Shown piece after piece: positions 10,714-15,765 of a stretch of 64,000 nt of DNA. Both the position numbers and the translations under genes were made by a program. Position 1 is the stretch's first letter, and each line of letters begins with the position of its first letter. The notes beneath the pieces were generated by a model. It was not told where the DNA came from and ran no database searches. It saw only the letters and a list, made by a program, of their open reading frames with translations. Origin of the DNA: Anaerolineales bacterium (GTDB lineage Bacteria; Chloroflexota; Anaerolineae; Anaerolineales; Villigracilaceae); assembly GCA_016934715.1 (NCBI GenBank), contig JAFGSI010000038.1:1-64000 (forward strand), in the 5' to 3' direction.

Positions 10714-11733
10714 TCAGAGCTTGAGCCTTGGGGGGGGGTGGGTTGGGGTGAGACCCGTCCAGCGCTTGAAGGCGTGGTTGAAGGCGCTCTGATCGGAATA
10801 CCCCAACAGAAAAGCGATCTCGCTGAGAGAGGTGCCTGGTTCCCTGAGATAGCGCAGCGCAAGTTCTTTCCTGACCCGGTCGAGAAGGACCTGGTAGGTT
10901 GTGCCCTCTGCTTTCAGCCTGTTCTGCAGCTGGCGGGGGCCGATGGCCAGTTCAGCGGCCACCGCCTGGAGGCCGGGTTTTCCGCCTTGCAGGAGAGTCT
11001 TCCCGATCGATTGGGAAACCTGCTCCGACAGGCTGCCGGGGCGGTTCAGCTCATCCAGCAACTCCCCGGCGACCGCCTCCAGGCGGCTGAGCACCCGCGG
11101 GTGGGCGAGCAGGATCGAGGTCTCGAGATCCTCCCGGCGGATGAGCAGCTCATCCCTGGCCTGCTCGAAGCGGATCGGGCAGTTGAAGATGCGCCGGTGT
11201 TCGCCGACCCGCCCAGGCCGCGGGTGGCGGAAATGGACCTGGCTGGCCGGGATTCTGCCTTCGGAAAGCCCCTTCAGGGTCATGAACAGCCGGCAGATCA
11301 CTGCTTCGGAGATCTGCCGGTCGATGTGCGGATCGTCGATCCTCAAGACCCCGGCATAGCCGGTGAGCTCACCCTGGTGGCGGATGTGCACCTGGACCAG
11401 GTCGGTGACCAGTCCATGGTAGCGGGACAGTTTTTCCATGGCAGCACCGACCGTCGGGCAGTTGAGCATGACCACCCCGAGCAGATCTCCGGCCGGCCGA
11501 TCCTGCAGTCGCTCGGCGAAATGCAGGCCGAAATCCGGGTCGGCGGTCCGCTCCACAACCTCCGTCCAGAGCTGGTGGAATTTCCGGGCCGAGAAACGCC
11601 TCTCGGCATCCCGGATCGTTTCCATGGGCAAGTCGACCGCCTGGCAGATCCCTGCCGGGTCGATGCCCAGATCGGCTGCGTATTTCAGCACAGCATGGAT
11701 GAGGGAGACGGAAACGGAAGGATTTTGTTCCAC
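10714..11733 (-). CDS. AraC family regulator (OruR-like, arabinose-binding-like N-domain)
   Basis: 339 aa, GTG start at 11733. Residues 15-200 match the N-terminal domain of OruR/ArgR-type AraC regulators (DLGIDPAGICQAVDLP, FGLHFAERL). Residues 240-335 are two helix-turn-helices, ending with LSEIAFLLGYSDQSAFNHAF, the classic second AraC helix. It is divergent from the MerB-like gene and is its most likely regulator. A TTGTAG-17-GATATT promoter on the minus strand (11783-11755) precedes it. Confidence 0.88.
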   Translation of the reverse strand: MEQNPSVSVSLIHAVLKYAADLGIDPAGICQAVDLPMETIRDAERRFSARKFHQLWTEVVERTADPDFGLHFAERLQDRPAGDLLGVVMLNCPTVGAAMEKLSRYHGLVTDLVQVHIRHQGELTGYAGVLRIDDPHIDRQISEAVICRLFMTLKGLSEGRIPASQVHFRHPRPGRVGEHRRIFNCPIRFEQARDELLIRREDLETSILLAHPRVLSRLEAVAGELLDELNRPGSLSEQVSQSIGKTLLQGGKPGLQAVAAELAIGPRQLQNRLKAEGTTYQVLLDRVRKELALRYLREPGTSLSEIAFLLGYSDQSAFNHAFKRWTGLTPTHPPPRLKL

Positions 11734-11783: not shown

Positions 11784-11855
11784 GACAATCCTCTGCTCTT
11801 ATTGTACCCTCGAAACACAGACATCCTGAAGACGTGCGTTGAGAGGAGAAAGTTT

Positions 11856-12590
11856 ATGGAAAATGAAATCCTGCTTGGGTTATGGCACTGCATACTGCCC
11901 ATCCCACCCTGGGTCTGGCAGCGGGTGATGAAGCCGGGCGGCGAACCGGACTTCATGGGCCGCGACCACCACCGGGTGCGCAACCTCGTCGTCCGGGAAT
12001 TGCCCAGGCAGGCAATCCCCCTGACCCCCGAATGGATCAGCCGGCAGCTGGACCTGCCGATTCCTGCAGTGGTGGCCATCCTGGACGAACTCGAACACAA
12101 CCTGACCTTCCTGTTCCGCAACCCGCAGGGTGCGGTCACCTGGGCCTATCCGGTGACGGTCGACCGGACCCCACACCAGGTCTCCTTCAGCACCGGTGAG
12201 CAGATCTACGCCGCTTGAGCCATCGACGCGATCGCGGTGCCCTTCGTGCAAGGGCGACTACGGTATGAGAACCTGTCCTTCACCGTCAAAACGGAATGCG
12301 GACACTGCGGCTGGCCGATCACGCTCGAGATCGACAGCGACCTGCAGTACCGGGTCCTGGAGGCCAACGCCGAGCCGTTGGTCTATGCCCCGATGCTGGA
12401 CATCTCCAGGCTCGAAGATCCCAGCATCATCGATGGTTTCTGACGGAAGTCGATCTTCTTCTGGTCAGAAGAACACGCCCGGGATTACCGCCGTAAAACC
12501 GGCGGTCAGCGCGGGGTTTTTGCCAGCCTCGATCAAAGTATCTATATCACCCGGAAGATCCAGAGCGCATTATTCGGGTTCAAACCCTGA
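11856..12590 (+). CDS. MerB-like organomercurial lyase homologue with two selenocysteine (UGA) codons
   Basis: 244 aa if UGA at 12216-12218 and 12441-12443 are read as Sec (Sec121, Sec196); read normally it would stop at 120 aa. The start ATG has GAGAGGAG upstream. The fold follows MerB: an N-terminal helical region (WISRQLDLPIPAVVAILDEL), then TPHQVSFSTGEQIYAA-U-AIDAI, a C-x-x-C (C148, C151), then IIDGF-U-RKSIFFWSEEHARDY. In MerB, Cys96, Asp99 and Cys159 break carbon-mercury bonds; Sec121, Asp124 and Sec196 fall at these three positions. Homology continues without a gap across both UGAs to the final TGA. A SECIS-like hairpin follows each UGA. The substrate could be organomercury or another carbon-metal(loid) bond. 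Confidence 0.85.
12219..12255 (+). promoter_or_regulatory. SECIS-like hairpin for the first UGA
   Basis: Stem GCCCTT (12239-12244) with AAGGGC (12250-12255), loop CGTGC containing the G-U pair that bacterial SelB binding favours. The loop starts 26 nt after the UGA at 12216-12218, inside the 16-37 nt window given for bacterial SECIS elements. Seen by eye; not folded by software. Confidence 0.65.
12444..12473 (+). promoter_or_regulatory. SECIS-like hairpin for the second UGA
   Basis: Stem TTCTTCT (12456-12462) with AGAAGAA (12467-12473), loop GGTC. The loop is close to the GGUC core of the E. coli fdhF SECIS loop and begins 19 nt after the UGA at 12441-12443. The arms also encode conserved MerB-family residues (IFFWSEEH), so the coding sequence and hairpin constrain each other. 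Confidence 0.7.
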
Positions 12591-14430: not shown

Positions 14431-15765
14431 CTATTTCTTCTTGCTGGTCTTCCCGAACCTGGCCTTCAGGATGTCCTCCAGCGTCGGCTGGCCGATCTCC
14501 TGCAGTTCGTAGCGTACGCGCTGCGACGGCTTGGTGATCTTGATGACCCGGGTCAGGTCGATCGGGGTGCCGATGACGACCAGGTCGACATCGGCCTTCT
14601 TGATGGTGGCTTCCAGGTCACGCATCTGGGCCGCGCCGTAGCCCATGGCCGGCAGGATCGGCCCGGTCTTGGGGTATTTCTTGTAGGTCTCGGCAATGGA
14701 TTTGACCGCGAACGGGCGCGGGTCGACGATCTCGGCTGCCCCGAAGCGCTGGGCGGCCACATAGCCAGCCCCATAGCCCATCTCGCCGTGGGTCAGGGTC
14801 GGGCCATCCTCGATCACCAGGACGCGCTTGCCCAGGATCTGGGATGGGTCGTCGACAAAGAGCGGGGAGGCCGCTTCGATGACGATCGCCTTGGGGTTCA
14901 GACGGCGCAGGTTCTCACGGACCTTGATCACCGCCTGCGGGTCGGCGGTGTCGACCTTGTTGATCACGATCACGTCGGCATTGCGGCTGTTGACCTCGCC
15001 GGGGTGGTAGCTGGACTCGTGCCCGGGACGGTGCGGGTCGGCGACGACGATCTTCAAGTCCGAAACGTAGAACGAGAAGTCGTTGTTGCCGCCGTCCCAC
15101 AGGATGATGTCGACTTCCTGCTCGGCCTGGCGCAGGATCTTCTCGTAGTCCACGCCGGCGTAGACGATCACGCCGTTGTCAATGTGCGGCTCGTATTCCT
15201 CGCGCTCCTCGATGGTGCACTCGTGCCGGTCGAGGTCGGCGTAGGTGGCGAAGCGCTGGACTTCCTGGCGGACCAGATCGCCGTAGGGCATCGGGTGGCG
15301 GATGGCGGCCACCTTGAAACCCATCTCGCGCAGGATCAGGGAAACCCGGCGGGTGGTCTGGGACTTGCCTGCCCCGGTACGCACCGCGCAGACCGAGACG
15401 ACCGGCTTGCTCGACTTGACCTGGGTGGTCGTCTCGCCCATCAGGCGGAAGTCGGCGCCGGCGGCCAGGACCATCGAGGCCTTGTGCATGACGTAATCGT
15501 AGGGCACGTCCGAGTAGGCGAAGATCACCTGTTCGACCTTGAGGTCCTTGATCAGCCTGATCAGGTCCTCTTCGGCGTGGATCGGGATGCCTTTGGGGTA
15601 TCGCTTGCCCGCCAGGGCAGCCGGATAAGTGCGGCCCTCGATGTCGGGGATCTGGGTCGCCGTGAAGGCCACGACCTCGTAATCCGGATTGTCGCGGTAG
15701 AAGACGTTGAAGTTGTGGAAGTCGCGCCCGGCGGCGCCCATGATAAGGGTACGAATGGGAGACAT
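14431..15765 (-). CDS. Cyclic 2,3-diphosphoglycerate synthetase-like GTPase
   Basis: 444 aa. It begins MSPIRTLIMGAAGRDFHNFN and has a P-loop-like VCAVRTGAGKSQTTRR at about residues 125-140, DIILWDGGNNDFSF and INKVDTAD (a GTPase-like NKxD). This matches the archaeal cyclic 2,3-diphosphoglycerate synthetase family, widespread in bacteria as uncharacterised GTPases. In archaea the product is a thermoprotective solute; the bacterial role is not established. A good AAGGAG site precedes the start. Confidence 0.82.
   Translation of the reverse strand: MSPIRTLIMGAAGRDFHNFNVFYRDNPDYEVVAFTATQIPDIEGRTYPAALAGKRYPKGIPIHAEEDLIRLIKDLKVEQVIFAYSDVPYDYVMHKASMVLAAGADFRLMGETTTQVKSSKPVVSVCAVRTGAGKSQTTRRVSLILREMGFKVAAIRHPMPYGDLVRQEVQRFATYADLDRHECTIEEREEYEPHIDNGVIVYAGVDYEKILRQAEQEVDIILWDGGNNDFSFYVSDLKIVVADPHRPGHESSYHPGEVNSRNADVIVINKVDTADPQAVIKVRENLRRLNPKAIVIEAASPLFVDDPSQILGKRVLVIEDGPTLTHGEMGYGAGYVAAQRFGAAEIVDPRPFAVKSIAETYKKYPKTGPILPAMGYGAAQMRDLEATIKKADVDLVVIGTPIDLTRVIKITKPSQRVRYELQEIGQPTLEDILKARFGKTSKKK

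Follow-up and report, generated by a model that had tools for sequence, protein, structure and literature searches.

The double-UGA reading frame

Is a merB-like frame that is interrupted by two in-frame UGA codons a decayed gene, or does it encode one protein with selenocysteine (Sec) at the two positions where MerB carries its catalytic cysteines? The question is raised by positions 11856–12590 on the forward strand of a 64,000 nt stretch of an Anaerolineales genome (contig JAFGSI010000038.1, positions 1–64,000; the whole stretch is from here on referred to as the window), where standard ORF finding ends the gene at the first UGA. Read through both UGA codons, 12216–12218 (residue 121) and 12441–12443 (residue 196), the frame gives a single protein of 244 residues with a MerB fold, starting with ATG and ending with a terminal TGA at 12588–12590. 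A Shine-Dalgarno-like purine run (AGGAGA region, 11843–11850, same strand, judged by eye) is located shortly upstream of the ATG, and the surroundings of the two proposed Sec residues read A-U121-A and F-U196-R. The original prediction, made from the sequence alone, had claimed this frame with its coordinates, both TGA codons and a 244 aa MerB-like read-through product, all of which held.

Fold and active site residues

The read-through protein matches the Pfam family MerB (PF03243) with an E-value of 4.9e-14 and 52.8 bits, compared to a gathering cut-off of 27, and the match is found in all 55 aligned members of the family. The AlphaFold model (pLDDT 92.5, pTM 0.89) retrieved MerB structures when compared with the PDB using Foldseek (E about 1e-12, identity to MerB ~20%); eleven PDB matches had an E-value below 0.001, all of them MerB, ten with TM-scores of 0.73–0.79 by target. 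A phmmer search of the PDB with the single sequence gave chance matches only and MerB was instead found by profile search, using a profile made from the 55-member alignment and aligned to solved MerB chains. This alignment places residue 121 at Cys96 of MerB, 124 at Asp99, 148 at Cys117 and 196 at Cys159, confirming the earlier claim that the UGAs fall at Cys96 and Cys159 with Asp99 kept. Asp124 (12225–12227, forward strand), the counterpart of the catalytic Asp99, is invariant. Further downstream on the same strand is the motif Cys148-x-x-Cys151 (12297–12308), in which Cys148, the equivalent of Cys117, is kept in the Sec family while Cys151 is an additional cysteine, present in 93% of Sec-family proteins as well as in several Cys-type relatives; that the pair forms a metal hand-off site is a possibility.

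Conservation of the UGA codons

A protein search through 396 genomes of the class revealed a gene with two or more internal TGA codons in 15 of them, the genome of the window counted, together with one remote Cys-type protein. A scan of genome contigs added 80 further loci and, after removal of identical proteins, 84 distinct homologues remained. Of the six back-translated patterns used for searching, two carried Cys codons, in one case at site 196, and TGA was therefore not favoured by the search. Codon 196 is TGA in 84/84 homologues and codon 121 in 82/84, the remaining two (L088 and L101, placed apart in the tree) having TGC, and no internal in-frame TGA beyond these two codons occurs in any of the 84. 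When analysing changes by codon position, the second position showed the fewest and the third the most, with first and second positions well under the third in all three segments, i.e. before, between and after the UGAs, and the whole frame is therefore selected as protein.

The contigs harbouring homologues are titled to about 11 phyla: Chloroflexota, Desulfobacterota/Deltaproteobacteria and Acidobacteriota and, each represented by a single record or a few, Pseudomonadota, Nitrospirota, Rokuibacteriota, Binatota, Bacteroidota, Actinomycetota and Hydrogenedentota. Most of the loci are metagenome bins, and the phyla with a single record may therefore be misbinned. A search for the MerB-like gene in a plasmid collection gave a single remote match only.

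SECIS-like hairpins downstream of both UGA codons

A hairpin was identified shortly 3' of each UGA on the forward strand. The first, CCCUU-CGUGC-AAGGG (12240–12254), has a loop starting 27 nt after UGA 121 while in the second, UUCUUCU-GGUC-AGAAGAA (12456–12473), the loop starts 20 nt after UGA 196 and the hairpin doubles as coding sequence for FFWSEE. Both apical loops (CGUGC, GGUC) have a G close to their start, as required of a bacterial SECIS element, and the GGUC loop of the second resembles the loop of E. coli fdhF.

All five pairs of the first hairpin form in 82/82 distinct sequences, three of which show a compensatory change from C-G to U-A in the basal pair, and all seven pairs of the second form in 84/84. 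The codons of the second hairpin, TTC TTC TGG TCA GAA GAA, are almost fixed across the family. Within the hairpin regions serine is encoded by TCA in 80/84 cases, compared to a usage of 17% in the family's own genes, proline by CCC in 79/79 (33%) and glycine by GGG in 79/82 (29%), whereas the first codon past the second hairpin (His) shows ordinary usage (G = 0.1). Synonymous choice is thus frozen within both hairpins and free directly outside them, so that the invariant FFWSEE motif partly reflects a constraint on the nucleic acid.

SECIS-like hairpin energies were stronger 3' of the UGAs than at control codons. Compared with shuffled sequences, the window's own two hairpins were unremarkable (folding-energy z of 0.31 and -0.36), and the case for the hairpins therefore rests on their conservation. 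In the two members with TGC at codon 121 the first hairpin has decayed in L101 and is still present in L088, as expected for an older and a younger reversal of Sec121, respectively.

Selenocysteine machinery of the genome

The genome of the window contains selA (527 bits), selB (357 bits, cut-off 242), selD (367 bits) and a tRNA-Sec with anticodon UCA (selC); the original prediction had proposed a search for these genes as a check, and all were found. The selD gene is itself that of a selenoprotein with one in-frame UGA and the motif AGUASK (L113, G000:C14:882-1811). Among the UGA-carrying genomes of the class selB is over cut-off in 15/15, compared to 314/396 overall (p 0.03), an association that is weak given how widespread Sec use is in this class. 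The UGA conservation, the Cys homologues, the machinery and the frozen hairpins together bring Sec at both sites close to certainty; the assignment, which we consider very likely, is inferred from sequence and no selenium label has been measured.

Relation to MerB, SaoL and Cys-type relatives

The family shares its fold with MerB (PF03243; structures 3f0o, 1s6l and 5c17), and Sec121, Asp124 and Sec196 follow the order of Cys96, Asp99 and Cys159, with two Sec in place of the two catalytic cysteines. In contrast to MerB, the position of Cys160 is mostly occupied by Arg, Lys or His, and the Sec proteins are ~30 residues longer and have a short insert and an extended N-terminus. The window protein does not reach the cut-offs of the canonical MerB models NF009710 (37.3 vs 193 bits) and NF033555 (35.4 vs 200 bits), and while canonical MerB is located in a mer operon the window gene is not.

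SaoL (NF040728) is also a MerB-related selenoprotein, for which the catalogue gives a single Sec, located in a CU motif (PMC13188914). In SaoL the single Sec is situated beside a Cys, whereas the window protein has two Sec, neither beside a Cys; the window protein scores 42.5 bits against the SaoL cut-off of 140, and SaoL belongs to an SAO operon while no SAO genes adjoin the window gene. No SaoL over cut-off was found in 370 genomes of the phylum. When scanned with NCBIfam, the 55 aligned members matched only the two MerB models and SaoL, and no NCBIfam model was matched over cut-off by the window protein, the only one for which cut-offs were compared. MbdU (NF045648) and the UxxU metal-binding protein NF041115 also have two Sec and putative roles in metal handling, but showed no sequence match to the Sec family in the NCBIfam scans. 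The window protein is thus neither canonical MerB nor single-Sec SaoL, and represents a variant of the MerB superfamily with two Sec.

An inventory of 119 prokaryotic selenoprotein families from May 2026 has SaoL as its sole MerB-related entry (PMC13188914) and lacks a double-Sec MerB-like family, and in the older selenoproteome papers searched MerB is absent from the main text. No report of a double-Sec MerB was found in the literature searched, though many subscription papers were not covered and prior notice is not excluded.

Cys-type MerB-like proteins of Chloroflexota (L030 and L120–L129) have the catalytic Cys and Asp in the same order and no UGA. The first cysteine and the Asp are kept in 11/11 of them, and the second cysteine lines up in most, with a shift of one alignment column in four, so that the homologues with Cys at both positions proposed as a check by the original prediction do exist (L030 and most of L120–L129). 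Many of these proteins share the second CxxC cysteine with the Sec family. In the tree a long branch separates the Sec family from the Cys-type relatives, and the usual warnings about long branches apply. L030 (G171:C140), a Cys-type MerB of the same class, belongs to an ordinary mer operon that also has merA and a gene for a MerR-family regulator, while the window gene stands alone. Four other Cys-type proteins (L123–L125 and L129; G414, G431 and G469) form a separate MerB-like group whose C-terminal tail is conserved and ends near MGLTGxYWKL; one genome has two copies ~22 kb apart.

Genomic context

The window gene is located alone between a divergent gene for an AraC-type regulator (10714–11733, reverse strand; Pfam Arabinose_bd and HTH_18) and a convergent BioY gene. 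The AraC-family protein may regulate the MerB-like gene, a possibility that is inferred. No mer or SAO genes adjoin the gene in the window and across the family no recurrent operon partner was found, the downstream genes being without a common theme. Upstream genes are MerR-type in 8/70 cases (one being the Cys-type L030) and MarR-type in 6/70, and several loci from deltaproteobacterial groups have a MerR-like or MarR-like regulator directly 5' of the gene. For the three MerR-like regulators scanned next to Sec-type genes a mercury MerR was rejected, the scores being at most 44 bits compared to 151.

The best MerA matches in the window's own genome are under cut-off (340 vs 454 bits), leaving no evident partner to reduce released Hg(II). 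The gene hgcA occurs in 3/15 carriers of the class compared to 19/377 other genomes (one-sided Fisher p = 0.045, uncorrected and confounded by habitat).

Putative function and alternative explanations

The product is likely to be a stand-alone MerB-superfamily selenoenzyme whose active site is made up of Sec121, Asp124 and Sec196. Cleavage of a metal-carbon bond as in MerB is the probable activity, inferred from the fold and the intact catalytic set without activity data, and the balance of evidence tips slightly towards mercury as the main metal, a substrate that is likewise inferred as there are no data on metal content. As in MerB, an organometal would be captured by the two selenolates of Sec121 and Sec196 and its metal-carbon bond broken as a proton is transferred to the carbon via a selenol/Asp124, after which the hydrocarbon would be released with the metal remaining between the selenolates until handed over to sulfide, a cellular thiol or Cys148/Cys151 close by. 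As substrate, methylmercury or another organomercurial would be most likely, at trace, sulfide-bound levels in anoxic sediments, where the higher affinity of selenium for mercury would help. With selone model compounds mimicking organomercurial lyases, Hg-C cleavage is faster than with thiones (PMC11639659), which makes a gain from selenium chemically plausible. Speaking against this reading are the low identity to MerB (~20%) and the lack of adjacent mer or SAO genes and of an evident MerA partner, and a very tight Hg-selenolate product might fail to turn over. Product handling and the in vivo role of the Sec family are inferred, and the earlier suggestion that a pair of selenols is a stronger nucleophile for mercury, or marks another substrate, remains an inference.

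The alternative that survives best is MerB-like chemistry on a non-mercury substrate, such as an organotin, -lead, -arsenic, -selenium or -tellurium compound or an SAO-type organometal, which we consider possible but clearly less likely than mercury. It is supported by the lack of a surrounding mer operon, by adjacent regulators that differ (AraC in the window, MerR-like and MarR-like elsewhere), with no regulator scanned next to a Sec-type gene reaching the mercury MerR cut-off, and by the nearest selenoprotein relative, SaoL, being filed under organometallic metabolism (PMC13188914). Against it, the catalytic triad of the mercury lyase is exactly kept, selenium favours mercury, and hgcA is more frequent among the class carriers (with the uncorrected p-value given above).

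A metal scavenger or sensor, in which the two selenolates sequester mercury or another metal without catalysis, is unlikely. The two selenolates and the CxxC (148/151) would make a very tight site for soft metals, and turnover at a bis-selenolate is perhaps slow (an inference), but catalysis is suggested by the complete MerB fold and by Asp124, which is invariant where MerB has its catalytic Asp99.

An ordinary merB carrying two nonsense changes, through decay or sequencing error, agrees with the ORF ending at the first UGA in standard gene finding but is all but excluded by the UGAs kept at both codons without any other, the purifying constraint continuing past both and the frozen synonymous sites of the hairpins; since the same two codons are TGA in independent genomes sequencing error is ruled out, and the original claim that two chance nonsense mutations are very unlikely held. 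A genome-wide reassignment of UGA, e.g. to Trp or Gly, would equally give read-through but is virtually excluded as well, as neighbouring genes terminate normally at TGA, the alternative residue in homologues is Cys, neither Trp nor Gly, and the genome has the Sec machinery, tRNA-Sec(UCA) included.

Implications

With organometal cleavage by a double-Sec enzyme as the preferred reading, Sec at both metal-binding catalytic sites, in many phyla and with reversal at one site in only 2/84 homologues, is unusual and offers a natural test of the contribution of selenium to mercury-carbon cleavage. Methylmercury degraders are surveyed by counting merB genes, and since ordinary gene calling stops Sec-type genes at their first UGA, carriers among Anaerolineae, deltaproteobacterial groups and Acidobacteriota would score as lacking merB. 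A bolder reading, for which we find about as much to say against as in favour, is that uncatalogued, widespread double-Sec organometal lyases constitute a route of anaerobic methylmercury breakdown that has escaped notice, standard annotation cutting off each member ahead of the first catalytic residue. In addition, the two conserved hairpins, both short, provide a clean system for studies of double Sec insertion.

Other features of the window

Elsewhere in the window, a bacterial RNase P RNA of class A is located at 640–1130 on the reverse strand, and a large ORF at 14431–15765, also on the reverse strand, has by eye only the look of a cyclic 2,3-diphosphoglycerate synthetase-type protein.
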